From IMG/VR virus record IMGVR_UViG_3300022538_000701, positions 1 to 34,794 of that record: a stretch of 34,794 bases of DNA; one strand, given 5' to 3'. A program made the translations under genes and the position numbers. This document shows positions 5,104-34,083 of the stretch, in pieces (position 1 is the first letter of the stretch; every line of letters begins with the position of its first letter). The stretch comes from a virus. The notes under the pieces are model-generated. The model saw nothing but the letters and a program-made list of their open reading frames with translations. It had not been told where the DNA came from and ran no database searches.

Positions 5104-6450
5104 CTAAGTTTTCATTAAGAAAGCAACATCATAGTATAGAGGACGAATGTCACTGATAGTGTCGTTTTCGCTTTCACTCTCGGGATTTTGTGCATCCACA
5201 ATATATTTAGCAGTTCCTGACCCCCCATCAAGCTCAGTTGGAATTGTATGAGTATGTCCACTAGTAGTTTTGCTGGTAGTACCTCCAGTAGCACCGGGGT
5301 TAGTAGCCGCAGTAGCCACACCTTCAACGAACCTAGCGAGTAGGTTAGGAGTTCCACCATTTCCATCACAGATAACCCAACTAGATGGGATATTGGCAAT
5401 TAAGCCGTGCCACATAACAATTATGCCTGCGGGGATTTTTGCTACAGTAGTCCACTTAACCCCTGCAGCGACACCTGAATCGGCTTCTAATGATTGTCCA
5501 TCAGAACCTACAGGTATTCTTACAGGAGTGGTGGAATAGCCCATCAAATCTCCCTTGGTAGTTAGCAAAAGTGTAAGCACCTCGGCAATTGTTAAGGCGG
5601 CTATTCCACCTGTAGCCTTTCTGCCAAGTATCCTTGAGGCAGCCACAGCCAATGCAGAAGGTGTATTATCGGTATCAGCTTTCAAGATGGTATTGGCATC
5701 AAAAAGAGCCTTCAATACGATGTTTGCGGTATCAACTAAAGTTGCATCTGAAATCTTGGCGTTCAAGTTCGCCAAAGTATCAACGGCGTGAGAAGCACTT
5801 CCAAGGGCGTGAGTTGCCCATTCGGGTCTATTCGCCCCCATCTTCAGAAGTAAGTTCGCTGCCCCCTTGGGCAACCTAGTAACAGTATTGGCATCTCTTA
5901 TTAAAAGGTCGCCGTCGGTGGTCAGGATTAGTTCCGGGCTGACATCATCTCGCTCAATGAAGCAATACAGCCAAGACCTATGATAATCGTAATAAACCGA
6001 CACAAAGTATTCGCCTTCGGCTATGTCCTTCCACCTGTAAGCCCCATCACCGCCATAGGCTACGCCAGTAGTAACCTCCGAGCCTTCCTGATGAGCACCA
6101 TCGGGTTCGTCATCATCTTGCTGCGGGCGGGTAATCGTTTCATCATTTATCTGTGTTGTCTGTGCATGCTCGGCTGGTGTCGTCGCCCGGTAACCCCGGA
6201 TAACATATAATTTATTAGTAGCGATGTGCCTGACAAACAGCAATTCGTTTTCAATCTTGATAATATCGCCGACGGCAAAATTACCGCCGTTGCTGACATT
6301 GAGTTCAATTGATGTGGCGGCAAGCGGGTTGTCCTGCACGGTATCACCGCTATCGGCATACGAAGCAAAGCCCACTATCTTCCAGAGCTTTGCCGTTGCC
6401 CCGTTCTGAGGCTTGCCGTTATAGATAAATGTGCCGTTTATTGTTCCCAT
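5104..6450 (-). CDS. tail fibre protein with tail-collar domain
   Basis: 448 residues. The N-terminal 170 residues form a beta-rich virion-attachment region (GTINGTFIYNGKPQNGATAK). The middle (200-340) is a low-complexity Ala/Thr/Leu shaft. The last 110 residues are a phage tail-collar domain, with IPAGIIVMW, WVICDGNGGTPNL, ARFVEGV, the GGTTSKTTSGHTHTIP stretch, and RPLYYDVAFLMK at the end. Such domains sit at fibre tips and contact the host surface. It ends just upstream of the zinc-ribbon and hub genes. Confidence 0.85.
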   Translation of the reverse strand: MGTINGTFIYNGKPQNGATAKLWKIVGFASYADSGDTVQDNPLAATSIELNVSNGGNFAVGDIIKIENELLFVRHIATNKLYVIRGYRATTPAEHAQTTQINDETITRPQQDDDEPDGAHQEGSEVTTGVAYGGDGAYRWKDIAEGEYFVSVYYDYHRSWLYCFIERDDVSPELILTTDGDLLIRDANTVTRLPKGAANLLLKMGANRPEWATHALGSASHAVDTLANLNAKISDATLVDTANIVLKALFDANTILKADTDNTPSALAVAASRILGRKATGGIAALTIAEVLTLLLTTKGDLMGYSTTPVRIPVGSDGQSLEADSGVAAGVKWTTVAKIPAGIIVMWHGLIANIPSSWVICDGNGGTPNLLARFVEGVATAATNPGATGGTTSKTTSGHTHTIPTELDGGSGTAKYIVDAQNPESESENDTISDIRPLYYDVAFLMKT

Positions 6451-6767
6451 TATGAACTCCCTCCATAGTGCTTAATATCTGCTTCCCTTTGGGCTTGGGC
6501 TATATCGTGGCGTTGTTGCGCAGGACTATAAACTTCTTCTGGAAAGTAGCTATAAGGCTTTCCTCTCAAGTTGCTTTTATAAATACTTTCCATCTCCTCA
6601 TCACTCAACAATGGCGGTTTATCTTTGGGTGGTTTGCGGTAGCCTTCTAGGACTTGGGTGATTTTCTCTATCGCTCTATCCGCATAAGGTTCTCTGGGGT
6701 AGTAAATGCCCTCCGTTACGGCCTCATTGATTATTTCTGCTATCTTCTCCTGTGCTTCTTTATCCAT
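6450..6767 (-). CDS. hypothetical protein in the tail module
   Basis: 105 residues, mostly helical and charged (MDKEAQEKIAEIINEAVTEG at the start), with a Pro/Lys-rich middle. No family recognised. The GGAGG ribosome site is good, and its stop overlaps the start of the fibre gene. It may be a tail accessory or fibre chaperone by position alone. Confidence 0.6.
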   Translation of the reverse strand: MDKEAQEKIAEIINEAVTEGIYYPREPYADRAIEKITQVLEGYRKPPKDKPPLLSDEEMESIYKSNLRGKPYSYFPEEVYSPAQQRHDIAQAQREADIKHYGGSS

Positions 6768-6891
6768 CTTCCACCTCCTTTAATGGTAATTGAAACCAAT
6801 GTCGGTCAAGCAATCTTTCTTCGTATTTGTGCTCCAACTCGCCGAACCTTATTTTTGCCGATATGGTCATTTTATAAACTTTAGAAGGCAT
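6760..6891 (-). CDS. 43-residue hypothetical protein
   Basis: A short frame whose ATG overlaps the stop of the tape-measure gene (TAATG) and whose last codons overlap the next gene by eight bases. The product is charged (MPSKVYKMTISAKIRFGELE at the start). It carries the ribosome site for the following gene in its coding sequence. It fills a gap that otherwise holds nothing, so I regard it as a probable gene of unknown role. Confidence 0.5.
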   Translation of the reverse strand: MPSKVYKMTISAKIRFGELEHKYEERLLDRHWFQLPLKEVEDG

Positions 6892-8552
6892 TACGTTGCT
6901 CCTTGTAATCCTACTTTCTCGGTTATTCGTTCCACTATAGTTCGTGTAACTTCCTCCCCATCAAGGTAGATATGTATAATGCTCTGAATTGGCGTCCTGC
7001 CCCCCGCAGGCAAAATTACTTCGTGCCTGTGTACCATCGCCAAGCCCGTCTCGGCAACGACGCCGCCGTATTGGAACTTAGGGACTTCGCCTCGTTCCCT
7101 TACATGTTTCCGCATTGCTTCAATCCTACCCGGAGTGCCCACTGACAATGCCCAAGCTTCTCCGTAATATGCTATAAGGGAAGCGGCTAAACCACCCGCC
7201 CGTGCCATGTCAGCGTGATACTCTATCATTGCCTGATTTAGTTCCCTTTGTGCATCGGCTTGTGCATCCACCGCCGCCACCAACTTTTCTTGTTCCTCCC
7301 GTTGTGCTTTTATCTGTTCAAAATATGCCCTTGTGGATTCCACAAGTTCCAATGTTATGCCCTGCTTCTTGTAGTGAGCCTCTATATCAGCATAAAGAGC
7401 TATTAGCGTCTTTTCGTACATTGCCAGCATAGCCTCATATCGGTTCTCCTCACTGGCCAGCAGCTTATCACGTTCGGCAAGCACAGTATTATAATATTCC
7501 GAAAGACCAACCTCTCTTTGTTTTAATTCTGTATATTCTCTAGTTAGCTTCGTCTGCCTTTGCAGCTGCGTGATGCCCCAATAAACCATGCCCAAACCGT
7601 AGGCTAAAGCAATAAGCGGGGCGTAGGCTGCCACTACCGTTGCGACAAATGGGATGAGGGAAGCTGTTACCATGTGAATGCCTGCTGCCAATGATGGTAA
7701 CATTATGAGAAGCATCCCCATCGGTATCAGCATTATACCGACCCCACTGCCCACGAGCACAATCTTTTCATATAAGCCGGGGATAGCTTCCGTCAGCTCA
7801 CGAATCTTCACAATAACTGAGGTAATTTTAGTTACCAAACCTGTAACGACTGGAACTAGAATCTCGGCAATATCGTATTTAAGCCCCGATATAGCCTCCC
7901 GCATGCGGTGCATAGCGTCGTTGAATTTGGCGGCTTTGTCGGCGGCCTCTTGGTCAAACACAATGCCCAGTTCATGAGCTTCCTTCCTGAGTGCCTCGAT
8001 ACCCTCTCTACCTTCTGCCAATAAAGGTAAAAGCTGTGTCCCGGCTCTTCCAAAGATATCTTGGGCGGTGGCTGTCTTTAGTGTTTGGTCTTCCAAATCG
8101 GCTATTGCCATGGCAATCCTCATAAACTGCTCTTCGGGTTTTAATGCTAGCAATTCCTCAGCGCTTAGACCTATACGGTCAAAAGTCCTTATGTAAGTCG
8201 CCATCCCCTCAGAGGCATCCACAATAGTTTTTGACATCTTCTTGGCTGCCTTATCCACAACACTAAGGTCTGCCCCACTTATTTCTAGGGCGTGCCTCAA
8301 TTCTGATAGCGCTTCGGTGGCAAAGCCTGTGCGGAGTGCCATCTTTTGAACCTCGTCCCCCGCTTTGGCAAAGTGCTTTATGCTCATACCAAGCACCCCG
8401 ACAATAGCGCTACCGGCAGCAACCATAGCCATACCCGCCATCCTAAACTGCTTGCTCATATCTTTGGTATTGCCTGAGACGTTCTTCAGGGTCTGGCTGG
8501 CCTCGTCTTTGGCCTTTATTAGAACCGCAATGTTAGCCTGTCCATTTGGCAT
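6891..8552 (-). CDS. tail tape measure protein
   Basis: 553 residues. The N-terminal 230 residues are helical with Ala/Lys/Gln-rich segments (KAKDEASQTLKNVSGNTKDM) and phage tape-measure signatures such as FGRAGTQLLPLLAEG. Residues 262-325 hold long hydrophobic helices (VLVGSGVGIMLIPMGMLLIM), expected for membrane insertion during DNA ejection. A coiled coil follows at 330-450, and the C-terminus includes FQYGGVVAETGLAMVHRHEV. It lies immediately after the frameshifted chaperone pair. The length predicts a rather short siphovirus tail. Confidence 0.9.
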   Translation of the reverse strand: MPNGQANIAVLIKAKDEASQTLKNVSGNTKDMSKQFRMAGMAMVAAGSAIVGVLGMSIKHFAKAGDEVQKMALRTGFATEALSELRHALEISGADLSVVDKAAKKMSKTIVDASEGMATYIRTFDRIGLSAEELLALKPEEQFMRIAMAIADLEDQTLKTATAQDIFGRAGTQLLPLLAEGREGIEALRKEAHELGIVFDQEAADKAAKFNDAMHRMREAISGLKYDIAEILVPVVTGLVTKITSVIVKIRELTEAIPGLYEKIVLVGSGVGIMLIPMGMLLIMLPSLAAGIHMVTASLIPFVATVVAAYAPLIALAYGLGMVYWGITQLQRQTKLTREYTELKQREVGLSEYYNTVLAERDKLLASEENRYEAMLAMYEKTLIALYADIEAHYKKQGITLELVESTRAYFEQIKAQREEQEKLVAAVDAQADAQRELNQAMIEYHADMARAGGLAASLIAYYGEAWALSVGTPGRIEAMRKHVRERGEVPKFQYGGVVAETGLAMVHRHEVILPAGGRTPIQSIIHIYLDGEEVTRTIVERITEKVGLQGAT

Positions 8553-8555
8553 TTG

Positions 8556-9139
8556 CTATTTCCTTCCGCTAAACTTCCTCTCCGTATTTATGTAGCGGAT
8601 AATATCGTAAACAACATCCGCCGGGCATTCCATCAGTTCTTGGTAGCTCCAACCCATTTCCTTCATCACCATATAATTCACATATCCTTTGGGGGCTATA
8701 TGGGGGCTAACGCTATCCTTGTCCTTTCCACAGGCCTCAAGAAAGGCGTAAACCTCCTCATCAAAGTCTACCCTTTTGGGGATTGATTCCTTTTGTTTAC
8801 TTCCCTAACTAACTTGTCAGCTACATCCGGGTCAAGCTGCCTAATGTTAGCCTCGGTTATTGGAGCTATTTTTCCGTGCTCATCAGGGAAGTTCCAACCC
8901 ACGATATTTATGCGGAGCAGGACAATCTTTGCCGATGCAACTTCCTCCTCCTCGGCAGCCCTCACTTCCAACTTGGCCACCTGCCCTTCTTTGGTCGGCT
9001 TAATTTCCTTTAGCGCCACCTTCACATAGTGGGCTTGAAGTTCCTCCCTATCACCGAAATTCATGCGATGTTTGATGTCCACCCAAAAGCCACCGCCCAT
9101 TTCGATTCGGTCAACTTTAAGGAAAACTATTGGTTGCAT
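8556..9139 (-). CDS. tail assembly chaperone GT (product of -1 frameshift)
   Basis: The frame after the G stop is open from 8556 up through the slippery site and has no start codon of its own. Reading slips by -1 at C CCA AAA, replacing the terminal Gly with Arg and adding 72 residues that run VDFDEEVYAFLEACGKDKDS at the start and end KFSGRK, giving 194 residues in all. This matches the G/GT arrangement of lambda-like and many siphovirus tails, with GT recruiting the tape measure protein. The next gene is the tape measure. The identification rests on the seven-base motif, the correct frame, and the position. Confidence 0.8.
8768..9139 (-). CDS. tail assembly chaperone G (short, unshifted form)
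   Basis: 123 residues. It starts at MQPIVFLK and ends at KRNQSPKG. The protein is acidic in its middle (AAEEEEVASAKI). Similar small proteins sit between the major tail protein and the tape measure in siphoviruses and act as assembly chaperones. Most ribosomes should make this form and a small fraction should shift to GT. The stop codon lies three bases beyond the slippery heptamer, as commonly seen. Confidence 0.75.
   Translation of the reverse strand: MQPIVFLKVDRIEMGGGFWVDIKHRMNFGDREELQAHYVKVALKEIKPTKEGQVAKLEVRAAEEEEVASAKIVLLRINIVGWNFPDEHGKIAPITEANIRQLDPDVADKLVREVNKRNQSPKG
8774..8780 (-). promoter_or_regulatory. programmed -1 frameshift slippery heptamer C CCA AAA
   Basis: On the coding strand the heptamer CCCAAAA lies in the register X XXY YYZ relative to the G frame (codons TCC CCA AAA GGG TAG). 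Slipping back one base continues into the 72-codon open frame. The heptamer obeys the canonical rule. I did not verify a downstream pseudoknot, although the following sequence is GC-mixed. Confidence 0.8.
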
Positions 9140-9156
9140 TGTCCTATTGTCCTCCT

Positions 9157-10137
9157 TTACGGTAATGTAGTTATAGCATTAGTAACCGCAACTTCAAAGA
9201 GCGTGGTGTAATTAGTACCCTGCTGGGTCGACATAACGACCTCCACTACATCTTCCCCGTCTCGCTCTGATAAGGTTGCAAAATCAGTGTAAATGCCACA
9301 GAAGTCAAGGGTAAGCTTCTTTTTGATAGCGTCTGATATAACGCTCCCTTCAATCTCTAACCTAATTAGGCGTAATGTCTTCCCATCAAACAGCAATCTC
9401 TCTACTTCAGCCCCGGCGTTGAAGGCAAATGTCATCCGTAACTCAATCCCTTTAATCCCCTCTCCGTAAACAGAAAAGATAATCAAGCCATCGCCATACC
9501 GCTTCGCATACAATCCAGTGTTGATACTATAGGAGGCGGAAATTATGGAACTCGACTTTTCAGTAGTGCCGATTGTGCCCGTTTCATCGTCAATATACAG
9601 CTTTACCTGTTGGAAGGGAATGGATTCAACGGTTGGGGGGTCTATACTAGGGGTAAAAGTTACAGGCGTCATCTGGCGTCCGAAGATTTCTGCCCGCATC
9701 CTCATCGCCTCGTTCATTGCCCCGCTAATCTCAATCGCTCTGGCGAGGCAATACTCGGTCTCCCAAGCCTGAACATCATCACCGTATTCAATGGTAAAGC
9801 TATCAAATGCCCCCACCGCTACCATCGCCGGGGTGAACGTCCACAGCTTGCCTGTGGTATCCACCTCGCTCGGGCTCACGCTGCCCAGAATGCCCATATG
9901 GAGCAGGTAGAGAATCTGCTCAAATGTGGCATCACCTTCGAACGTCAGCTCAGCTAAATCAGCGACCTTGACGGAGCGACTGAACTCAGCCATTGTTCCT
10001 CGCTCCTCTACTGGACGGTGGATGGTGGGGCTTGACTTCATCGTAAGCCCCCCAAGCAGGGCGGCTGTGGCCGGAACCGCCGTACCCTTGTCGGTCTCCT
10101 TTCCAATCTGAATCTTTCGTAACGCTTTTATACCCAT
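9157..10137 (-). CDS. major tail tube protein
   Basis: 326 residues, beta-rich, without export signal. It begins MGIKALRKIQIGKETDKGTA and has phage tail-tube features: GKETDKGTAVPATA near the start, a central WTFTP segment, and alternating strands (YSINTGLYAKRYGDGLII). It is placed between the neck genes and the tail chaperones, the expected location. It is longer than many tube proteins, so it may carry an extra surface domain. Good AAAGGAG ribosome site. Confidence 0.75.
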   Translation of the reverse strand: MGIKALRKIQIGKETDKGTAVPATAALLGGLTMKSSPTIHRPVEERGTMAEFSRSVKVADLAELTFEGDATFEQILYLLHMGILGSVSPSEVDTTGKLWTFTPAMVAVGAFDSFTIEYGDDVQAWETEYCLARAIEISGAMNEAMRMRAEIFGRQMTPVTFTPSIDPPTVESIPFQQVKLYIDDETGTIGTTEKSSSIISASYSINTGLYAKRYGDGLIIFSVYGEGIKGIELRMTFAFNAGAEVERLLFDGKTLRLIRLEIEGSVISDAIKKKLTLDFCGIYTDFATLSERDGEDVVEVVMSTQQGTNYTTLFEVAVTNAITTLP

Positions 10138-10152
10138 AATCTTCTCCTTTCC

Positions 10153-10614
10153 TTATGTATTCTCGTATTTACTGAAACTCGCTATTAGTCTGGCGTCGCT
10201 TAAAAACGTCCCTTCCCGCCCATACATGGGCGTAAAATCCACACGGTCAAAGGTAATAACATAACCCAAGACCGTGCGTGCTCTTATTAGCAACTCAATC
10301 ATTGCCCTTATGTACCTGTAGAGCTTCCTTCGCAACTGTGCCGTGTCTTGGTCGCCAACAAAGCAGATTATGGATAATGTGTGGCTCGCCTGCATCCAAC
10401 CAGCCCCCTCGCCGATTATAGCGGTTGTGTCGCCAAGCACAAAGACCGAAGGATACTCAGGAATTGATGGTTGTTCGGCTATGTACCAGCCTTTTATATC
10501 ATCAAGCGCAAAGTCACCATATTCGGCATCCAATATATCCAGCTTGGCGACTATATTGGTTTCCAAATAGCCCTTAACAGCGTCTATTGCCCCTTCAATC
10601 AGTGCCAATGTCAT
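10153..10614 (-). CDS. tail terminator / neck protein
   Basis: 153 residues of alternating helix and strand. The middle contains PSVFVLGDTTAIIGEGAGWM, and the C-terminal half has a long helix (AQLRRKLYRYIRAMIELLIR). This resembles siphovirus tail terminator proteins that cap the tail before head joining. Its start overlaps the stop of the virion-morphogenesis gene (ATGA), and the tail tube gene follows. Confidence 0.55.
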   Translation of the reverse strand: MTLALIEGAIDAVKGYLETNIVAKLDILDAEYGDFALDDIKGWYIAEQPSIPEYPSVFVLGDTTAIIGEGAGWMQASHTLSIICFVGDQDTAQLRRKLYRYIRAMIELLIRARTVLGYVITFDRVDFTPMYGREGTFLSDARLIASFSKYENT

Positions 10615-11096
10615 TGAAACCTCTTCCCCGCCTGCTTTACCAAGTAACGGTGTATAATCTTGTGCATCCTTGTCTTTTGTTCCTCAGGTAGCATAATAAT
10701 GGGGCGGGCTGGCATAATGCCAGTGCCCTCCTGATGGAAGCGGGCATAGGGTAACGTAGTTCCCACCTGCATTTCCAAGGGCTTTATTACCTCTATAGTA
10801 TGCCCGGTCTTGCCTGCCAATGATTCCTTTAGCGCCCCGGTGCGCACCAATATATCCAAGGGGAAGCCACCTCGCTCCTTGCGTTCGATTGTGGTGGATG
10901 CTAACGGCTGCCAGCCACCCGCCCCGTAATCGCCTTGGCTTTCAAACTGGCGTTGCTCGCTTTCATGGAAGTCCTTGACTATCTCCCTAAAAGCTGCGCT
11001 TAAATCCTTGACGTCCTCGGCAAACCTGCTGAAGCCCCGGCTTACCTGCTCGTCGCCCAGCACCTTAAAAGTTAGCATAGGCTTGCCTTCTGCCAT
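10611..11096 (-). CDS. virion morphogenesis / tail completion protein (Mu gpG-like)
   Basis: 161 residues from the ATG at 11096. A longer upstream extension in the same frame is only the antisense-like shadow of the preceding connector gene, since it is Arg-rich and lacks a ribosome site. The protein has the virion-morphogenesis pattern: ESQGDYGAGGWQPLASTTIE, then ILVRTGALKESL, then YARFHQEGTG and PARPIIMLPE. In Mu-like phages this family completes the tail or neck. It has an AAGGATAAGG ribosome site. Confidence 0.75.
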   Translation of the reverse strand: MAEGKPMLTFKVLGDEQVSRGFSRFAEDVKDLSAAFREIVKDFHESEQRQFESQGDYGAGGWQPLASTTIERKERGGFPLDILVRTGALKESLAGKTGHTIEVIKPLEMQVGTTLPYARFHQEGTGIMPARPIIMLPEEQKTRMHKIIHRYLVKQAGKRFQ

Positions 11097-11523: not shown

Positions 11524-11783
11524 TATGCCACCTCAGGTTCTTTAATGACCACTTCCTTCTCGGGTTCTTTAATGGCCACTTCCTTCTCGGGTTCTTTAAT
11601 GGTCACTGCCTTCTTGGGCTTTCTAATGGCCATTCCTTCCTTGGGTTTTCTAATGGTCACATGTACGTCTTCTGATTGGGCTACCAAGGTCATTGCCGCT
11701 TCCTCAACGGATGCGCCCCTCAAAGCCTTGACATCCTTCCCATCCAACTCAAGTGTGCCCGTAACACTTACTTTGACTTTCAT
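11523..11783 (-). CDS. small protein with tandem 9-residue repeats
   Basis: 86 residues. The first 43 form a small alpha-beta domain (MKVKVSVTGTLELDGKDVKA). The rest consists of five nine-residue repeats beginning Ile-Lys/Arg-Lys/Glu-Pro, for example IRKPKKAVT and IKEPEKEVA. The first two units are basic and the last three acidic. It resembles a PEVK-like extended linker. Function unknown; it may be a head or neck component by position. Confidence 0.6.
   Translation of the reverse strand: MKVKVSVTGTLELDGKDVKALRGASVEEAAMTLVAQSEDVHVTIRKPKEGMAIRKPKKAVTIKEPEKEVAIKEPEKEVVIKEPEVA
11526..11654 (-). repeat. tandem 27-bp coding repeat
   Basis: Five in-frame units (the last truncated to seven codons) encode the repeats of residues 44-86. 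The units at 11526-11600 are nearly identical and the earlier ones diverged, a sign of recent expansion by slippage at the gene end. Copy number is likely to vary between relatives. Confidence 0.75.
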
Positions 11784-16041: not shown

Positions 16042-18078
16042 CTACGCAACGCTGGGGCGCTCCGATTTGTAAACATATACCCCGATACATCTACAGCGTT
16101 CCTCTCCTTCACAATGCTTGTACGGTGGGGCTACCTCATCCCAGTCGGCACTTGGATAGTCAAATTCCTTTCCATCTTGGTCAGCGCAAGCCCCGCAGGT
16201 ATTCTCATCAAGTATGGCACTGTAAACGACATGGTCAATCTGGTCGCCCATTTCCTTGGCTTGGTCTTGCCTCCCCAAGTTAAATGCATCGCTTACCGTA
16301 AACTTGGCTGTGGCTCGCAGTTCCTTATCTGATAGCTCAGTAAGCGCCGCAGTCAAAGCCCCCCTGTCAACTACGCCCACCTTGGCTTGATGTAGCGCCT
16401 GCCACGCCATTGCCGCCCTCAACTTGTTAGCCAAGATTAATGCTGTGGCTTTGGCACGTTGAATAAGGTAAGCCTTGCTCGCCTTTGAAGATGCTGGCTC
16501 AAGTCCAGTTGGCTCTTGTGCCTTGAGGCTGCCCGCCTGTCTTGTAAGTTCCTGCTTAACCTGTTCCTTACCATAATCATAAAGGTCAAGGAGCACATCT
16601 TGAAGCGCCGTCGCCATCTGCTTTTCGTAGGGTACGCCAATTTCTGATATATCCGTGTCGCCTTTTTCCAGCGCCCTTGCTACCATATTGACAAGGTCAT
16701 TAATCTGCTTTGTTTGTATTTGCTTGGCGGATTTAACAAGCCTATCCTCGGCACTATCAAGTTTGTCTTTTATATCCTTAAAGGCTACGTGCTTTTCTGC
16801 ACCTTGCAAGTACCTTGGGGGCTTCCATTCCTCAGCAAGCCTAAAACGTTCACTCGCCTTTACACCGGGGGCACGAATAGCGGGCAGGTGTAACCTGCGG
16901 CGTAGCTCAACCTCAATGTTACGGTCAGGCAGTATCAGCCCACCAGTTACCAAGTCGGCGATTGCCTTGCTGTACTTGGCAATATCATAGTACTCTAAAC
17001 CGCTTACAGCGAGCTTGGGATAAGCATCAACATCCCAATTATAATCAACCAACTGCCTAAGTGCATAACGATTAAAGGTATCACAGATATTCCTGCTTAC
17101 CGCTTGAAGCGCCATAAGGAAGAAACCCGATTGGTCTTGACTTAGTGCATAACTGCCATACTCGCCAGCGCCAAGGTTGATAAACTGGGCAAGGATGCTG
17201 CGAACAATCTGAAGGTCATGGTGCTCAATTGAACCCTTAATATCGTGCAACTGCCCGGCTACGCCCTTGAGGTCAAAGCTAATCTCATCAGGCAAAGCAA
17301 TATAGGCTCGTTCGTGGGCGTGCAGCTTTTCGCCTATGGCAGTAACCTTATCCTTGTCTTCCTTTGGGGTTGCAGAAGGGTACTTAAACACAGCCAAGCC
17401 CACACCGTGCCGTTCGGCGGCAATTCCATCAATGCGATATAGCTGGTCTTTGTAGTACCAATGTTTGTAAGCTGCCCGTAGTATTGACATACCTTGATAA
17501 TTGCTGCCCTCACGTGCATTGACAAATACAAGCAACTTTTCCACCGGAATGTCTATAAACTGATATTGGTCGTCTTTGAAAACTAACTGCTGGATACCCT
17601 GCAAGCCCCCCTCCTTATCAATCTTCCACCTGTGTAGTGTATTGGCTAACCTTGGGGCAAACTTGCGCCACTTATACTTGCCATCTTTCAGTTCCCACAC
17701 CTTTTCAAACATGCTAAAGCCAAAGGGTAACATCAACAGTATATGGCGCAGGAAGTCATCAAACGTAATGGTCATATCTTCAAATAGATTGTAACGAACA
17801 AACTCGGCTATTTGCTGGTCTTGTTTGCTGTCGCTGGCTGCTTCAACATCCCAATGAGCAGCCCGCAGGGGTAATTCGCAGGCGAGCAGAGCAGCCTTGA
17901 CTTGCCCGTCGCTGCGGCGCATCTTCTCATAAACCTTTATTGCCTTATCGCCCCTGAGGTCGGGGTTATACTCGGTCTCGGTAAGCTGCCCAGCAAAGAA
18001 AATCGTGCCAGTGCCACCAAGCTCAACAACGGATGGCTTTTTGGTTCTGCGTAGTCTAAATATGTCAGTAAGCTTCAT
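16042..18078 (-). CDS. portal protein (Mu gp29/DUF935-like) fused to MuF-type domain
   Basis: 678 residues. Residues 1-430 match the Mu-like portal family, with DKAIKVYEKMRRSDGQVKAA, then HWDVEA, PFGFSMFEKVWE, and QGMSILRAAYKHWYYKDQ. This ring lets DNA in and out of the capsid. The C-terminal part after a helical linker (about 590-678) looks like a MuF/SPP1 gp7 head morphogenesis domain, with AILDENTCGACADQDGKEFD and a second Cys/His cluster before RCRCIGVYVYKSE. Two genes that are separate in Mu are joined here. It lies directly after the large terminase gene. Confidence 0.85.
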   Translation of the reverse strand: MKLTDIFRLRRTKKPSVVELGGTGTIFFAGQLTETEYNPDLRGDKAIKVYEKMRRSDGQVKAALLACELPLRAAHWDVEAASDSKQDQQIAEFVRYNLFEDMTITFDDFLRHILLMLPFGFSMFEKVWELKDGKYKWRKFAPRLANTLHRWKIDKEGGLQGIQQLVFKDDQYQFIDIPVEKLLVFVNAREGSNYQGMSILRAAYKHWYYKDQLYRIDGIAAERHGVGLAVFKYPSATPKEDKDKVTAIGEKLHAHERAYIALPDEISFDLKGVAGQLHDIKGSIEHHDLQIVRSILAQFINLGAGEYGSYALSQDQSGFFLMALQAVSRNICDTFNRYALRQLVDYNWDVDAYPKLAVSGLEYYDIAKYSKAIADLVTGGLILPDRNIEVELRRRLHLPAIRAPGVKASERFRLAEEWKPPRYLQGAEKHVAFKDIKDKLDSAEDRLVKSAKQIQTKQINDLVNMVARALEKGDTDISEIGVPYEKQMATALQDVLLDLYDYGKEQVKQELTRQAGSLKAQEPTGLEPASSKASKAYLIQRAKATALILANKLRAAMAWQALHQAKVGVVDRGALTAALTELSDKELRATAKFTVSDAFNLGRQDQAKEMGDQIDHVVYSAILDENTCGACADQDGKEFDYPSADWDEVAPPYKHCEGEERCRCIGVYVYKSERPSVA

Positions 18079-21989: not shown

Positions 21990-23027
21990 TTACCCTATAT
22001 TCCAAAAGCAAATCGGGTCGTTTAATTCATCAATATGCTCACACATCCAACGATATGCCTTGCGGTCGTACCATTTATCGCAAGGGAATGAGCAGGGGTA
22101 ATTGTCTTCGGCATAGTATTCCCTATCGCCCAGCACAATATCAAAAGGTATTGCCTCAAATCCCGAGGGTAACAAGCTGGTAATACGGCGGCGGATAATT
22201 CTTTCGGGGTCTGATTTACTTTTACCCTCCTTTAGCTCCTTGCCCGTCATACCAATATACACCCCAACCACCCGGCAAGTGCCCTTAATCCCCACCAGCA
22301 AGCCAGCAAACATTGTGCCTGTGGCCACAACACAAATAATCGTTCCTGTCGTAAGCTCAAGGGGCAAACTTCTTGCCTCGCCTGCAACCGAAAGCAAAGA
22401 CTCGGTTAGCTGTCCGCCCATAGGCAATAAATAAACGTCCCTTTTTTGACATTCAATTCTGGCATTGTAATACATGGGATAGATACGGCTGGCGGGCACT
22501 TCTATCAATTCCGCCCCCGCCTCTTTTGCCTTTTGTTGGAAGTAAGGCACAGCGCCTCTTTCAGATTGCCGTGTGCCATAATAAACAGTGCACCTCAACC
22601 CCAAATCCCTGCAAAGCCCGGCAACACCCCAACCTATCCTGCTTGTCCTGCTATCAAGGACAGCGACATGCTTAATACCTCCGCTTATCATTTGCCGAAG
22701 ATGAACTTCAATGCCCCTCATTTTGGCGTTGCCACCCCCATACTTACCATTATTCCAAAGGTCATCTCGCTTTACATAGACCGTCCTATTAAACAACCTA
22801 TATTCCTCAACTGGCGTTCGCAGACGGTCGGGCGTGCCATTCCAATAGCTGCCAATAAACTGGGCGCAGGCGCAACGCCCACACAAGCGTTCCTGCGCAT
22901 AACCCAACTTTACTGCCCTGCTACCGGGGCGGGTGGGGAAGTAAATATCATCATACTTGTCGTCCTCGTTGGGCGGTGCTGTTTTACCGCACATTTCGCA
23001 GGGCTGTATTTCGTTATTATTTACCAA
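21990..23027 (-). CDS. zinc-finger PLP-dependent (fold type II) enzyme
   Basis: 345 residues, TTG start behind AAAGGGG. Residues 10-52 hold a zinc finger (CEMC at 10-13, CGRC at 49-52). The rest is a fold-type II PLP domain of the ACC deaminase/cysteine desulfhydrase kind. It has VYVKRDDLWNNGKYGGGNAK with the presumed PLP lysine K102, a serine/threonine-rich loop near VLDSRTSRIGWG, and a VATGTMFAGLLVG phosphate-binding loop. In other phages PLP enzymes join DNA-modification or nucleotide pathways, and it precedes a methyltransferase and a kinase. The substrate is unknown, and the base-modification idea is inference. Confidence 0.75.
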   Translation of the reverse strand: MVNNNEIQPCEMCGKTAPPNEDDKYDDIYFPTRPGSRAVKLGYAQERLCGRCACAQFIGSYWNGTPDRLRTPVEEYRLFNRTVYVKRDDLWNNGKYGGGNAKMRGIEVHLRQMISGGIKHVAVLDSRTSRIGWGVAGLCRDLGLRCTVYYGTRQSERGAVPYFQQKAKEAGAELIEVPASRIYPMYYNARIECQKRDVYLLPMGGQLTESLLSVAGEARSLPLELTTGTIICVVATGTMFAGLLVGIKGTCRVVGVYIGMTGKELKEGKSKSDPERIIRRRITSLLPSGFEAIPFDIVLGDREYYAEDNYPCSFPCDKWYDRKAYRWMCEHIDELNDPICFWNIG

Positions 23028-24758: not shown

Positions 24759-25016
24759 CTATTCCGTATGCCTCAACACAGTCCGCATTTTTTGCGTAGT
24801 GGCATGGTCAAACATGATACGAAAGACCGACCAATTTCCAAGGCCGCTTGCGCCACTTACTTGCTGATAAATCTCAACGAACAACTCACCATCACTATTA
24901 AGCCCCACAACAGCCTTAAAATCGCCCACTGGCGAAACATTAAAGCGCTGCCGATTTAGTATTTCCTCATTTATCTTTACAATCCTAATATCCTGTGAAC
25001 GTGGTTCTTGCATCAT
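24759..25016 (-). CDS. hypothetical protein behind the replisome gene
   Basis: 85 residues. Its ATG overlaps the stop of the replisome gene. It contains beta-strand-like stretches (NVSPVGDFKAVVGLNSDGEL) and no recognised motif. Tight coupling suggests expression together with the replisome, so a replication accessory role is possible. Confidence 0.55.
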   Translation of the reverse strand: MMQEPRSQDIRIVKINEEILNRQRFNVSPVGDFKAVVGLNSDGELFVEIYQQVSGASGLGNWSVFRIMFDHATTQKMRTVLRHTE

Positions 25017-28000
25017 ATTAACTCCCCCAAGTTGTTGCCTATTTTGTATTTTACCACAAGCGGCACAGGAAATGCAATGTCTTGCATGGCGGCTTGCAAC
25101 TTCGGCACTAACTCATCAAGCCTTGCCTCAGGTATGTCAAATATCAATTCATCGTGTATATTGATGGAAGGCGTCCATATTGCCCCCACCTTAGCGGTGG
25201 ATAACTTAAACAATTCGGCAGCCGTGCCAGCTATAGGGAAGTTGACCGCCTCACGAAAGCCTTCCTCCTTTATACGTCTCGTACCACTAAATACTTTGTA
25301 AATGTAGCGCCTACGACCAAAGTAATCCTCAACATAACCATCCCTCAAAACATCAGCCTTGGTGCGCCCTTGCCAGACCCCCAACCCCTGAAGCATGTCA
25401 TAATAATCCCGTATAATTTGCCTGCATTGCTCCAAACTTGGCGGGTTGCCCATACGTTCCAAATCAAACTCCCCCATAGGCGCATTTAAGTATGTATGCA
25501 AACCTTGAGCAGTACCTAGAAACATACTCAAATAATTGGCTGATTTGACCACATACCTATGCGAAGGTTCATGGTCGCCAAACAGTCTATCAGCCAGCCA
25601 ATTATGTATATCCATTTCCCTATCCTGATATGCCTTCATCAGTGCCTCATCACCTGTTACGGCGGCCATAGCCCTCATATCAATTTGACTGTAATCCATA
25701 CTGACCAGCTTACAGCCCGGACTCGCAATAAAGGGTCGCCGTGCCTCAAGCGTATGGGGCAGGTTTTGCAGGTTTGGCTCGCTTGATGAAAGTCTTGCTG
25801 TGGCGACACGAGCTTGACTAAAGGTGGAATGTATAATACCATTCTTATCAGTCAATTCAAGGCAGGCATCGGCATAGGTTGAAATCAGCTTGCTTAATTG
25901 ACGCCACCTCAAAATAATAGGTATAGCAGGATGGTCGTCCATAACTGAAGCCAGTATTTCCTTGCCCGTAGCATACTGTGTGGATTGTTCTGTTTTGGGC
26001 AACTTTATACCTTCTTTTACAAGCCATTCGCCAAGCTGTTTGGGGCTGCTTATTTGCTTTGGTATCAAACCATATTCATCCTCAAGTACAGCCTGCGCAG
26101 TTGCCCGTTGTTTATCAAGCCCCGCCCGCCAATCACGCACATACTCAAGGTCTACCCGTACGCCTTTCCTTTCCATATCAATCAGCACAGGCAGCAGGGG
26201 CTTTTCAATGTTCTCATATATCCAACGCTCACGGTCATCCGCCAGTTGCCACAAGTAGCCCCACAAGCGAACTGTGGTGTCGGTATCTTGGCAGCAATAC
26301 TTGGCTAACTTATCAAGCGATAACTCGGCGGTAATGGCACTGCAATCCTTGTGGTCGACATTCAATTCTTGCGTCTCCAGCACCTTTAAGTGTAAGTTTG
26401 GATAGCCCATGCAGTATGCCAGCAACATAGTATCATCAATCTCTTTGCCTTCCCATTTGTAGCCCTCACGTTCCAGTATTTGCAGGTCATATTTCGCATT
26501 ATGGAACAATAAATATCGCCATTCAGGGCAGTCATTAAGACAATCAACAATCTTCCCGTTGGGGTAAAAACAAGCCATGCCGGGGTGCAAGGAAATAGCG
26601 CCACCCAAAAGCCCCCCATAAAGCCCGGCTGTTTCAGTATCAATGCAGACAAAATCCTTTTCAAACGCCTCGGGGCTGAGTTCGCCGATGCTGTATTCGC
26701 CTTCTATTTCGCTTACAACAGGCAAGCCTTCAAAGCGCTCAAAATCTAGGGTCGCAGCGTTAGCGTAGAACGGGTTGCGCAAGCCCGCCGATGGATGATA
26801 CATAATGATATACGTTATATCGCCACGCCGAACCTTTTTGCCATGATAGCGTGCTATAGAGTAATCAGGCAATAAGGCGCTTACCGCCACATCGCCCAAT
26901 AAAAAGATACGCTTGGGTTTCAATCGTTCCACCTCCGCCTGTAACCTTGGCAAGCAACATTTAATAGCTTTGCTTGTAGGCTTACCAATCTTTTTGCCCT
27001 TCTTGGGTGGGTGGCATAAGCATGTATTGGTAACATAGCAATCAGCCTGCCTAAGATTTGCTATATCAAGCAATTCATCCAAGCGCCTACCGGCTCTGCC
27101 CACAAAGGGCGTGCCCGCTTTAGCTTCATCCTCACCCGGCGCTTCGCCCACGAGCATTATTCCCCCACCCCCCTCCACCCCATATCCCTCAACCCTTGGA
27201 CGTCCCTTTAATGGGCAATGCGCACAGTCTGCAAGCCCCATCTCAGCCACCCTATAATTTTTAATCTTAGATACTGTTACCCCTATTCCCCCCTCCCCCC
27301 CCGAGTTTGGGGGTTGACCAGCTAGGGGGGCAATAACAGCCCCTATGTGGTTATCTTCAAGGTGGGTATCGGTGGGTATCGGTTTTGCATCGGGTATGCC
27401 TCGTCCTGTAATGATTGCTTTTAGGTTGTCTATCCAATTTCGTATTTTCTGTTCTGTCTCCCCACTGGGGTATTGTTCACCTTTCAAATAGAAATTGATT
27501 GACCGTCTATCAATGCCTATTTCTTCGGCGCATTCGCTTTTAGTTTTGCCCAGCTTCCTAGCAAGTATTATCCCTTGGTCAAGCAAATCAGCTATAAACG
27601 GGCGACCCAAGCCTTCCCTTGTTTCCTTATCAAGTTCCCTCCAATCGGCAATAGCCGCCGTTCTTGTAATACCCTCATAGGCAATGCACCAATCGGCGAC
27701 ATCCCATGCCCTTGTCGTGCCTTCAAGCCTGCCGTAATACTTCTCCTCGGGCAACCCGGAGTAAAGCAGTTTGGTAGCGCAGAAGGCGGCAAGCATCTTG
27801 CCCAGCGTCCCTTTTGCCAGTTCAACCCCCCGCCCCGCACTCTCTCCGCTTGCCGTGTGGTGGAGAAAGATGACGGCGCAGTGCAATTCATCAACCATTT
27901 TGCTGGCAAGCTCCCTGACCTCATCCGCCTCTTCCTTGCTGTTGTAATCTTTGACAAAGGATTGGATGCTGTCCATTATCAGCACCTCGCTTTGTTCGGC

Positions 28001-29107
28001 GACCAAGGTATTCCACAGGCTTTCAACGCTCGGCTTATCCCACAACCTAACGTTGCGCCCGTCAAGAATAATTAGGCCGCCAGCCTCACCCAACGTCGTC
28101 TGCATTGCCTTTGCCTGTTTCGCAATGCTAGTGCCACGTTGTTCAAAGTTGATATAGGCTACCCGCTTTGCCTTTGGAACGGCGAGCACGCCCAGCACCG
28201 GTTTGCCTTGGCTCAGTGGGATAGCAAGTGATAAGCCCAGAGTGGTCTTGCCAATGCCTGACACACCTGAGATGATGGCTGTTGCGTTTTCACCACCCTC
28301 AAGAAATTGGTCAATGATTGCTTCAATATGCTCTTCCTCAATTTCATCGGTGAGCCGTATAATTGGCACTGACAAGCGCAGTTTTATTTCAGCCCAAATC
28401 TTCTCCGGCAGGCTAAATCCCATTGTTCTGCTATCGTCCAGCAGTTTGGTTAGTGTGCCCTTGGCGGGGCAGCCGAAGCAGTGAAATACGCCCTTTGCCG
28501 GGTTGATAAACAGGCTGGCATGTTCGTCGTTGTGGTAGGGGCAGTTCATTTTAATTTCGGCGCTGTGGAGACGTTCCCATTCTTTGTCATAGTTAAGATA
28601 CGTCTTCAGCCAACTTTCATAGGGAACAACAAAGGGTTCATCATACAGGGCTACCCATTCCCGTTGTGGTGTATCGGGTGCGATATCCAGCGCTTTGTCC
28701 CCGCCAATACCAAGCTCCCAAAATTCAGCGCCTAACAGTGGATTGTGTTCTTTAACTGCAAACGGTGCAACGTCCGCCCGCATTACCACATGAGAGCCTC
28801 TGGCGCTTTTGTGGATGCAGCAGCCTTCACCGAATGCGCCCGCCTGTTTTAAGGTCTTGAATACCTCAAGTGTATCGCAATCTATACTGAAAAGATTGTG
28901 GGATAGTACAAAAGCAAGCCCCCAAGGTTGCTGTTTAACGAACCACTCCTCATATTCCTTATCTGTGGGCAGTTGGGTTTGATACTTTGTCCACTCAATT
29001 AGGGGCTTCTTTGACTTTGCAATGGGTATTACAGCGCAATCCCATACATCAGTGTAGAATCGCACAAAATCCATACGTGTCCAACCTGTTGTATCAATCA
29101 ATCTCAT
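25013..29107 (-). CDS. single-chain replisome: Prim-Pol, zinc, helicase, HTH, UDG, exonuclease, PolA
   Basis: A 1364-residue protein. In order: Prim-Pol domain (about 10-170) with D76 and D78 (SIDCDT), H106 (RGSHV) and D141; CHC2-like zinc motif C189, H192, C210, C213; RecA/RepA-type ATPase with Walker A GVSGIGKTT at 281-289, Walker B LIMDS at 376-380 and H416/H417; HTH at about 519-563; Gly-rich linker; family 4 uracil-DNA glycosylase (622-795) with GEAPGEDE, PFVGRAG, HPS and Fe-S cysteines C628, C631, C698, C718; 3'-5' exonuclease with D823/E825, N870/D874 and Y937/D941; family A polymerase with motif A at 1138-1145, motif B at 1184-1198 and HDE at 1318-1320. All domains look intact, so one polypeptide could prime, unwind, copy, proofread and scan for uracil. 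The start has a weak AAGGA site. An iteron array lies directly upstream. SPO1-type phages have UDG-PolA and apicoplasts have primase-helicase-PolA fusions (from memory); this combination is unfamiliar to me. Confidence 0.93.
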   Translation of the reverse strand: MRLIDTTGWTRMDFVRFYTDVWDCAVIPIAKSKKPLIEWTKYQTQLPTDKEYEEWFVKQQPWGLAFVLSHNLFSIDCDTLEVFKTLKQAGAFGEGCCIHKSARGSHVVMRADVAPFAVKEHNPLLGAEFWELGIGGDKALDIAPDTPQREWVALYDEPFVVPYESWLKTYLNYDKEWERLHSAEIKMNCPYHNDEHASLFINPAKGVFHCFGCPAKGTLTKLLDDSRTMGFSLPEKIWAEIKLRLSVPIIRLTDEIEEEHIEAIIDQFLEGGENATAIISGVSGIGKTTLGLSLAIPLSQGKPVLGVLAVPKAKRVAYINFEQRGTSIAKQAKAMQTTLGEAGGLIILDGRNVRLWDKPSVESLWNTLVAEQSEVLIMDSIQSFVKDYNSKEEADEVRELASKMVDELHCAVIFLHHTASGESAGRGVELAKGTLGKMLAAFCATKLLYSGLPEEKYYGRLEGTTRAWDVADWCIAYEGITRTAAIADWRELDKETREGLGRPFIADLLDQGIILARKLGKTKSECAEEIGIDRRSINFYLKGEQYPSGETEQKIRNWIDNLKAIITGRGIPDAKPIPTDTHLEDNHIGAVIAPLAGQPPNSGGEGGIGVTVSKIKNYRVAEMGLADCAHCPLKGRPRVEGYGVEGGGGIMLVGEAPGEDEAKAGTPFVGRAGRRLDELLDIANLRQADCYVTNTCLCHPPKKGKKIGKPTSKAIKCCLPRLQAEVERLKPKRIFLLGDVAVSALLPDYSIARYHGKKVRRGDITYIIMYHPSAGLRNPFYANAATLDFERFEGLPVVSEIEGEYSIGELSPEAFEKDFVCIDTETAGLYGGLLGGAISLHPGMACFYPNGKIVDCLNDCPEWRYLLFHNAKYDLQILEREGYKWEGKEIDDTMLLAYCMGYPNLHLKVLETQELNVDHKDCSAITAELSLDKLAKYCCQDTDTTVRLWGYLWQLADDRERWIYENIEKPLLPVLIDMERKGVRVDLEYVRDWRAGLDKQRATAQAVLEDEYGLIPKQISSPKQLGEWLVKEGIKLPKTEQSTQYATGKEILASVMDDHPAIPIILRWRQLSKLISTYADACLELTDKNGIIHSTFSQARVATARLSSSEPNLQNLPHTLEARRPFIASPGCKLVSMDYSQIDMRAMAAVTGDEALMKAYQDREMDIHNWLADRLFGDHEPSHRYVVKSANYLSMFLGTAQGLHTYLNAPMGEFDLERMGNPPSLEQCRQIIRDYYDMLQGLGVWQGRTKADVLRDGYVEDYFGRRRYIYKVFSGTRRIKEEGFREAVNFPIAGTAAELFKLSTAKVGAIWTPSINIHDELIFDIPEARLDELVPKLQAAMQDIAFPVPLVVKYKIGNNLGELI
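27162..27302 (-). other. two G-rich tracts on the coding strand at the helicase-UDG junction
   Basis: On the coding strand, runs of G at 27280-27302 (8, 6 and 4 G in sequence) and at 27162-27181 (5, 6, 2 and 4 G) lie in the linker and early UDG segment (residues 603-610 and 643-649). They could form G-quadruplexes. The linker coding is low-complexity Gly-rich. This may mark a recent domain fusion or a pause site during translation or replication. Confidence 0.4.
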
Positions 29108-29142: not shown

Positions 29143-29213
29143 GATTCACTACTTTTATAACCGGCGCAGGGATTCACTATTTTTTTAAGGTGCGCAGGGA
29201 TTCACTACTTTTA
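29143..29213. repeat. three 28-bp-spaced iterons upstream of the replisome gene
   Basis: GATTCACTA occurs at 29143-29151, 29171-29179 and 29199-29207, exactly 28 bases apart. The second and third extend to a longer unit that includes GCGCAGGGATTCACTA, and all are followed by T-rich sequence. Directly repeated units beside a replication gene are typical of iterons bound by an initiator. The gap 29108-29285 (178 bases) holds no gene. Confidence 0.75.
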
Positions 29214-29269
29214 GGCGGAACAAATCTCCATCAATGTAATCATTGACTTAATGATTTCATCCGCCTAAA
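29210..29269. other. nested inverted repeats, candidate replication origin
   Basis: TTTAGGCGGA (29210-29219) and TCCGCCTAAA (29260-29269) form a 10-bp inverted repeat. Inside it are TCAATG/CATTGA (29231-29236 and 29241-29246) and AATCAT/ATGATT (29238-29243 and 29251-29256). The interior is AT-rich. With the iterons beside it and a primase-helicase-polymerase gene downstream, it is the best origin candidate in the window; operator function is an alternative. Confidence 0.55.
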
Positions 29270-29285: not shown

Positions 29286-29624
29286 CTACTTTATACTGTA
29301 GTAACGCCCCAGTTTGCCCTTTACCCTTATAATTTGAATGAGTACGGGTAAATACTGCTTGGCCATCTGCTTGAGGGCGTCGATTACAACCGTACCGCCA
29401 CAGGCGGTGGTGCATAGTTCATCCTTCCAATGGAACTGCATAACGGCGAACTCGCCGCCATACTGTTTGCTTGGCAGGATTACAAAATCCAGCAGTTCAA
29501 TTTCCTCGCCGAGTATGTCCTCGACACCTCCATCAAGCCGCCGTCCTTCAAGTTGCACGCCTACGCCTACGGTAACAAAATCAGTTAGCCTTTTCTTTGG
29601 TGTTACTTTTGGTGGTGGGCACAT
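29286..29624 (-). CDS. possible single-stranded DNA-binding protein
   Basis: 112 residues with strand-rich pattern, including ILGEEIELLDFVILPSKQYG, FAVMQFHWKD and a C-terminal VKGKLGRYYSIK. The strong AAAGGAGGT ribosome site suggests high expression. Its place just before the origin and replisome gene, after a nuclease and HNH-like gene, fits an OB-fold SSB. No acidic C-terminal tip of the bacterial SSB kind is present. The call is by position and fold impression. Confidence 0.45.
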   Translation of the reverse strand: MCPPPKVTPKKRLTDFVTVGVGVQLEGRRLDGGVEDILGEEIELLDFVILPSKQYGGEFAVMQFHWKDELCTTACGGTVVIDALKQMAKQYLPVLIQIIRVKGKLGRYYSIK

Positions 29625-33030: not shown

Positions 33031-34083
33031 TTATTCTTCGGGCGTGGCATCAATTACCTCACCTTCAATAGTACCTGGCTCCTGCGAACCTTGTGTCAAT
33101 AATGGCGTTAAACCTAACTGCTTGAGCGGGTCATGCTCTTCAAGTTCCCTGTGGAATTCCCCCAGTTGAACGTGCCTGTAAACATCAGCGGTAATGGCAA
33201 CGCTGGCGTGCCCCAGCATCTTGCTGATTACTTCTAGTTTAGCCCCGTGCTCAAGCGTCCGTGTGGCAAAGAAGTGCCTTAGTTGGTGTGGGTGTATATT
33301 CCGAATGCCCTCCTTTTTGCAGGCGAGCTTGAGCGCCTTTTGGAATCCACTCTGCCACCAATAGCCCATCTTAGTATTTGCCGGGAACAAGTAACGGCTG
33401 GTGGTGGGGTTGTTCGCCATGTACAATCGCAGTAAGCCTGCAACAAAGGCGTTGATGGGTATTGTACGTTCCTTGTTGCCCTTGCCCAATACCTTTACCT
33501 CAAGCCTTTTTATGCTTATATTGGGGCGCTGCAGGCTGGCGGCCTCTTCTATGCGCAACCCGGTATTAAGTAAAAGCATGAGCATCATCTTGAACTTTTG
33601 GTCGTCCCTGTACCTAAACAAGCGGTGGTTTATTATTGTCATAATTTCTTCATTGGTGGGGCAATCTATCTCCTTTTTAGCGCCTTTTACCAGCACCATA
33701 CCATTGCATGGGTTCGTGTTGCACAAGCCCTGGGCGTGCAAGTAGCCAAAGAATGATTTTAGCCCTTTTTGTTCGCTGTTTACCCGTGCCGCAGAAACCT
33801 CGTCAAGCCGCCGGGCAACGTAAGCCTGAATACTCAGGCTTGTTGGGCGGGGGTCTAGCCCTAAGTAATGCCTTACATCACTCACGTACATATCAATGGT
33901 GCGGGGGCTTTTGTTTGTGCCTTTGAGCCAAGCAACCCACAGGGGCACGTTGATGATTGGGTCGGGCAGTGGTGTATCTGTAACTATGATGCCGTCCCGT
34001 GCAGCAAGCTGGGCAACTAATTGCTCAGCTAGTTGCTTGTTATCGGGGGATAGTTGGTCAATTATTTGTGCTAAATCTTTCAT
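33031..34083 (-). CDS. tyrosine integrase
   Basis: 350 residues. The N-terminal arm and core-binding region (about 45-125, with KSPRTIDMYVSDVRHYLGLD) precede the catalytic domain. Catalytic residues are visible: R177 (NTGLRIEE), K204 (KGNKERTIP), H266 and R269 (HPHQLRH), H292 (MLGHAS) and Y302 (VYRHV). It should integrate or excise the phage at an attachment site. The last 30 residues are an acidic tail. The site itself was not identified, but inverted repeats lie further right. Confidence 0.93.
   Translation of the reverse strand: MKDLAQIIDQLSPDNKQLAEQLVAQLAARDGIIVTDTPLPDPIINVPLWVAWLKGTNKSPRTIDMYVSDVRHYLGLDPRPTSLSIQAYVARRLDEVSAARVNSEQKGLKSFFGYLHAQGLCNTNPCNGMVLVKGAKKEIDCPTNEEIMTIINHRLFRYRDDQKFKMMLMLLLNTGLRIEEAASLQRPNISIKRLEVKVLGKGNKERTIPINAFVAGLLRLYMANNPTTSRYLFPANTKMGYWWQSGFQKALKLACKKEGIRNIHPHQLRHFFATRTLEHGAKLEVISKMLGHASVAITADVYRHVQLGEFHRELEEHDPLKQLGLTPLLTQGSQEPGTIEGEVIDATPEE

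Follow-up and report, generated by a model that had tools for sequence, protein, structure and literature searches.

A phage gene joining primase, helicase, uracil-DNA glycosylase and DNA polymerase domains, with a candidate replication origin in its linker

In this study, we describe a phage gene (positions 25013..29107, minus strand; ATG at 29107, stop at 25013, 1364 codons) whose product carries, in order, an AEP/Prim-Pol domain, a CHC2 zinc ribbon, a RepA-type RecA helicase, an HTH, a linker, a family-4 uracil-DNA glycosylase (UDG), a 3'-5' exonuclease and a family-A polymerase (PolA). With moderate confidence, we read the locus as a one-chain replication machinery in which helically phased repeats in the linker would serve as the origin and which would have arisen by fusion of neighboring genes across it. 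The fuller version, in which initiator, primase, helicase, uracil surveillance and proofreading polymerase lie in one chain and the gene carries its own origin at the joint, is put forward more tentatively, since we judge it somewhat more likely to be wrong than right.

Results

The window, that is, the whole stretch of DNA that was analyzed, is the complete IMG/VR record IMGVR_UViG_3300022538_000701, a linear virus contig (34,794 bases). It encodes a portal, a large terminase, a tape measure and a head protease and has a tyrosine integrase gene at 33031-34083; this gene content points to a phage that is probably temperate and tailed. The C-terminus of the portal gene product (gene, 16042-18078; residues 600-674) matches the head maturation protease PHROG (phrog_595), and the strongest tandem repeat in the window, a 27-bp unit in 4.8 copies, lies at 11532-11660, where it overlaps an ORF near the structural genes. 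A nucleotide search of the left 25 kb of the window against phage records gave no match.

An earlier note on this DNA had described an uninterrupted gene of 1364 codons. The frame was borne out, on the minus strand, which that note had left unstated; the plus-strand frame of 25013-29107 is full of stops. The gene is real and is not an assembly chimera, a question that the earlier note had raised, because a phage from a different metagenome, L097 (IMGVR_UViG_3300035179_000023, 40,722 bp), has the same architecture in a single ORF of 1400 codons with no stop (L097:6030-10232). Its fused protein is 65% identical to that of the window over residues 3-1364, and it is the one further instance of this domain order that was found in metagenomic phages. 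A homopolymer at the joint and the existence of a split homologue, in phage L092, would fit an assembly or base-calling artifact at a G tract in a phage that truly has two genes; however, the same stop-free fusion in an independent record from another metagenome makes this explanation very improbable.

L092 (IMGVR_UViG_3300033064_004059, 35,247 bp), whose TerL is 66% identical to that of the window, carries primase-helicase-HTH (approximately 614 codons) and UDG-Pol (755 codons) as separate genes that lie approximately 740 bp apart, with a small gene between them. Identity to the window is 50% for UDG-Pol and approximately 34% for primase-helicase. Gene order is common to all three genomes along their length. 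The sister phages were reached via TerL (L092) and via pairwise protein alignment (L097); single-sequence scans of viral contigs gave no relative, and later viral-contig scans gave no member beyond the three phages. Two scans of genome contigs turned up no prophage copy; they returned ordinary cellular Pol I only, at no more than 37% identity and with no UDG, helicase or primase adjoining.

Two other genes are present in all three phages. One encodes a PLP enzyme of the threonine dehydratase type (PF00291; window 21990-23027, L092:7485-8522); it is 62-69% conserved, has a cysteine-rich N-terminal stretch and is unusual cargo for a small phage. The other, at 29286-29624 in the window, just upstream of the fused gene, encodes a 112-aa protein with no family match, perhaps one that binds single-stranded DNA or otherwise assists replication.

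In the N-terminal half, the AEP/Prim-Pol domain (residues 1-170; 28598..29107, minus strand) scores weakly in the window protein, for which Pfam made no Prim-Pol call. In L097, PF09250 was matched at 24.2 bits (cut-off, 22.8), and a three-sequence profile reached the primase-polymerase ORF904 of pRN1 (1rni; E 0.006). The residues expected of this family (DxD, sxH and a third acid) are invariant in the three phages: motif I is D76-x-D78 (28874..28882), motif II has H106 (28790..28792) and the motif III acid is E131 (28715-28717), all on the minus strand. D141 was considered as the third acid and rejected, since it is not conserved. Searches of the N-terminal half against phage and plasmid records gave partial, weak matches only, and the AlphaFold2 model of the N-terminal 569 residues was poor (pLDDT 42), giving no structural support for the AEP fold or for ring formation.

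The DnaG/CHC2-type zinc ribbon (residues 184-232, with C189, H192, C210 and C213; 28412..28558, minus strand) was matched by PF01807 at 1.5e-9, and its profile also matches the primases 2au3 and 1d0q. The RecA-fold helicase of the RepA/AAA_25 type (residues 262-419; 27851..28324, minus strand) was matched by PF13481 at 1e-18; it has Walker A at 281-289 and Walker B at D379, the structure best matched by profile is RSF1010 RepA (1g8y), and unwinding and hexamer formation are predicted. The HTH (residues 517-553; 27449..27559, minus strand) was matched by PF01381 (HTH_3) at 3e-4, under the cut-off. Pfam found no DUF927 in the window protein, which sets it apart from the PolA polyproteins of the Pyrovirus type.

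The family-4 UDG (residues 624-790; 26738..27238, minus strand) is assigned by Pfam, profile and conserved residues. The Pfam UDG match covers residues 649-783 (6e-29), TIGR00758 scores 114.4 bits, just below its cut-off of 125.3, and the best PDB match is Tth UDGa (1ui0). Motif A, GE(A/G)PG, and motif B, HPSxxLR, are present, as are the Fe-S cysteines (628, 631, 698 and 718) and the uracil-pocket residues E655, E661, F668, N694 and H771. The last five, which are kept in both fused proteins, correspond to E41, E47, F54, N80 and H155, which define the pocket of Tth UDGa (PMC5387724). The fused protein is predicted from these residues to act on uracil. Identity as a UdgX was rejected: the window has GEAPG and KKIGK, with Gly at the place of the His, where UdgX has GEQPG and a KRRIH loop with a cross-linking His (PMC10359453).

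In the split phage, the equivalents of E41, E47, N80 and H155 are N, T, F and D, the Fe-S cysteine positions are kept and the polymerase looks active; identity between this phage and the window is 37% for the UDG and 56% for Pol. Single changes at the pocket sites of Tth UDGa lower its efficiency by >40-fold to >1000-fold (PMC5387724), and both fused copies have Lys at the motif-3 position (Tth N89). These observations would suit a UDG that is a structural or uracil-sensing module, occupying the 5'-nuclease position of Pol I and serving no repair, with any excision incidental. We consider that reading unlikely, since all four of the residues lost in the split phage are intact in 14 of the 15 UDG-Pol proteins in the alignment, among them the two fused ones, and the N89A change alone causes only a moderate loss in Tth UDGa, with substantial activity left (PMC5387724). 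Because the split phage has lost four pocket residues, uracil excision is predicted to be dispensable in at least one relative.

The 3'-5' exonuclease (residues 819-960; 26228..26653, minus strand) has the DEDY-type residues D823, E825, D874, Y937 and D941 and a Pfam match over 865-954 (2e-7). The family-A polymerase (residues 961-1364; 25013..26227, minus strand) was matched by PF00476 (DNA_pol_A) over 999-1361 at 3e-75 and contains motifs A, B and C, with the catalytic residues R1105, D1138, R1184, K1188 and D1319, as in proofreading family-A polymerases. In all three phages, the position of E. coli F762 is Tyr (Tyr1192 in the window) and that of E710 is Asp; in the sequences compared, this pair is a mark of this small group. 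AlphaFold2 gave a confident Pol I fold for residues 601-1364 (pLDDT 86.6, pTM 0.85), with Z scores of 36-37 against Klenow structures; a structure search with this UDG-Pol model listed Pol I throughout, which is uninformative on the UDG part.

Overall, the domain list and order of the earlier note stood up to Pfam, homologue profiles and conserved residues, with Pfam matching the zinc ribbon, AAA_25, UDG, exonuclease and DNA_pol_A, and HTH_3 falling below its cut-off. Prim-Pol was subthreshold in the window protein and above cut-off in L097. The statement of the earlier note that the key residues of every domain are visible was correct apart from the motif-3 Asn of the UDG, which is Lys.

Protein conservation collapses between the HTH and the UDG, in the linker (residues 564-622; 27242..27418, minus strand), where the DNA carries an iteron-like array of three CCGAT cores (27361..27393, minus strand) that are spaced by 11 and 10 bp and overlap a 10-bp tandem repeat. 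The array in the window is short, with three cores only; CCGAT is the sole 5-mer, on either strand of the 34.8-kb window, with at least three copies at 10- to 11-bp spacing, and Markov shuffles of the window gave a mean of 0.2 such chains. The L097 linker has four CCGAT cores (spacing of 11, 11 and 10 bp). In L092, the gap between the two genes has six TGCCA cores at 10 to 12 bp and then a stretch that is strongly AT-rich; this genome has just one other such chain, of three copies, at 22307. When codons were shuffled synonymously, the pattern shared by both linkers was seen in 0 of 20,000 trials, and for each linker alone P was approximately 0.01. These are direct repeats in helical phase, as in iteron-type origins; in L092 they are intergenic, and in the two fused genes they fall within the linker-coding sequence. 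The regularity does not reflect a peptide repeat, since neither 10 nor 11 is divisible by 3, and a hairpin in the linker RNA was dropped as a candidate because the fold was not unusual (z 0.14).

In each of the three phages, the DNA past the repeats is AT-rich, always to the same side; as a possible unwinding region it is clear in the split phage, and in the window 30-bp stretches reach 77% AT. The candidate unwinding element of the window is the AT-rich word AGTATCTAAGATTAAAAAT (27257..27275, minus strand), 19 nt that are identical in L097. L092 has the AT-rich TATATATTTATAAATAATATCTAGATAC at the matching place, and TATCTAGAT in its AT-rich stretch resembles the 19-nt word. At the fusion joint, between the repeats and this word, is a tract of G8-A-G6-AATA-G4, a G-quadruplex-type motif (27280..27302, minus strand), in place of which L097 has a different G-rich tract. 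The GC skew of the window is monotonic and gave no origin signal.

Because the phased repeats share their place in all three phages, with AT-rich DNA past them that is clear in the split phage, we regard them as a candidate iteron origin that may have become trapped within the coding sequence of a replisome gene. Alternatively, the repeats could be operator or partition sites through which the HTH autoregulates, with the origin elsewhere, for example, at three 28-bp direct repeats (GATTCACTA...; 29143..29226, strand not applicable) directly upstream of the gene, which are themselves a candidate operator or second initiator site. The presence of these repeats, and the position of the split-phage array directly upstream of the UDG-Pol gene, would agree with such regulation; however, neither in the window nor in the split phage was a sigma-70-type promoter found close to the array, the array persists in coding sequence after fusion, where the operator of an old promoter would be unneeded, and nothing corresponding to the 28-bp repeats precedes the gene in L097 or L092. 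We therefore rate the operator reading as improbable, although it deserves some weight, and prefer the origin. Between the two fused phages, the repeat core is the same and the HTH recognition segment is similar, and both are different in the split phage; that they change together is no more than suggestive, over three genomes.

A search of viral contigs with UDG-Pol returned 80 loci, approximately 70 of which encode both UDG and PolA (approximately 60 in one ORF). Since a primase or helicase is fused in front of UDG-Pol in none of these loci, the fused state is probably derived, a direction that we infer from this distribution. The fused gene would have been created by in-frame joining of the adjacent primase-helicase-HTH and UDG-PolA genes across the origin-containing gap, and the split phage would have retained the unfused layout.

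It is quite possible, if on balance doubtful, that the old two proteins are still the working units, the full-length chain being a precursor or else one product of two; a separate UDG-PolA might arise from an internal start (GTG620/ATG623), slippage on the G tract or proteolysis in the linker. The longest G/C homopolymer in the window lies in the G8-A-G6 at the joint, the other frames meet stops just past the G tract, the linker is poorly conserved and the similar multienzyme protein Prex is described as a polyprotein that undergoes proteolytic processing (PMC7689252). However, the frame through the joint has been kept in two phages that are 35% divergent and have different G tracts, and, at the corresponding position, L097 lacks an ATG and Shine-Dalgarno signals are weak.

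Discussion

For the favored reading, a single working chain with an origin at its joint, we envisage the following mechanism, in which the enzyme activities, ring assembly, origin function and binding of the HTH to the repeats are all inferred. The HTH would bind the phased repeats in the linker-coding DNA of its own gene, and the RepA-type ring helicase would load on the AT-rich DNA beside these repeats. Primers made by the AEP domain and zinc ribbon would then be extended by the tethered exonuclease/PolA. Such helicases form rings, so that several polymerases may be tethered to one hexamer. The UDG, in the position that the 5'-nuclease has in Pol I, would recognize and probably excise template uracil.

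If this is true, the protein could assemble on its own coding DNA, and an origin locus would have turned into coding sequence with its repeats kept, a likely origin caught while turning protein coding. The protein would also be among the most compact replisomes known, with its 1364 residues combining primer synthesis, unwinding, DNA synthesis, proofreading and uracil surveillance at a fixed 1:1 stoichiometry, and a one-chain protein of this kind would be useful for single-molecule work and for isothermal amplification enzymes. The three phages form a natural experiment, in which the locus is split or fused and the UDG pocket is lost or kept. The multidomain architecture bears out part of the earlier description of a complete one-protein replisome with uracil removal built in; however, completeness and uracil removal were overstated, since the protein has no SSB, clamp, ligase or 5'-nuclease and the UDG active site is gone in the split relative.

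Phage lambda provides a precedent for an origin inside an initiator gene: ori lambda lies in the middle of the O gene, with its iterons within the initiator coding sequence (PMC3985674). Lambda O is, in contrast, a small initiator without enzyme domains, and its origin has four 19-bp iterons.

The individual parts of the protein have clear parallels. UDG-PolA alone is a common, routine phage fusion (PHROG 17), in which, as in the window, the UDG is N-terminal to exonuclease and PolA; the corresponding half of the window protein matches PHROG 17 at 3.5e-105, and the DNA polymerase I of PaBG is of this type (PMC7412058). Unlike the window protein, the phage UDG-PolA proteins (PHROG 17, PaBG and many IMG/VR contigs) lack an N-terminal AEP, zinc ribbon, helicase and HTH, and they are 24-30% identical to its UDG-Pol half, compared with 64% and 50% for the sister phages. 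Two viral contigs carry two complete UDG-PolA genes side by side (L014:3170-5419 and 5548-7872; L015:6001-8274 and 8403-10748); the UDG match of the first copy is the shorter one, and tandem replicative polymerases are unusual. AEP-helicase initiator-like proteins of phages and plasmids (PMC5862659), and pRN1 ORF904, share the AEP and helicase with the window but have neither UDG nor PolA.

Single proteins that combine primase, helicase and PolA, without UDG, are already known from Pyrovirus and Prex, and phiAsp2 Pas55 combines a primase-like part with PolA. The apicoplast Prex is, like the window protein, a multienzyme protein with PolA, and the window Pol matches the Prex Pol structures 7sxl and 5dku. 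Prex has a DnaG-type primase and a Twinkle-like helicase and is not known to have a UDG, and it is encoded by a nuclear gene and processed. The 1606-aa PolA polyprotein of Pyrovirus (TOSV OS3173) has a primase/helicase-like N-terminus followed by exonuclease and PolA (PMC7689252); its N-terminal part is of the DUF927/COG5519 type, for which the window protein gave no match, and no uracil glycosylase is mentioned for it (PMC7689252). In the Actinoplanes phage phiAsp2, Pas55 (1415 aa) likewise joins a primase-like N-terminus to PolA but differs in its DUF3854-type primase domain and in having no Walker A and no UDG or AEP match; its gene, pas55, at L186:23305-27552, is an independent primase-polymerase fusion.

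In the phage records, IMG/VR and papers searched, the full set of domains is not described for any protein. As judged from its domains, the architecture is that of a known class, the phage multienzyme PolA proteins, with a new domain combination.
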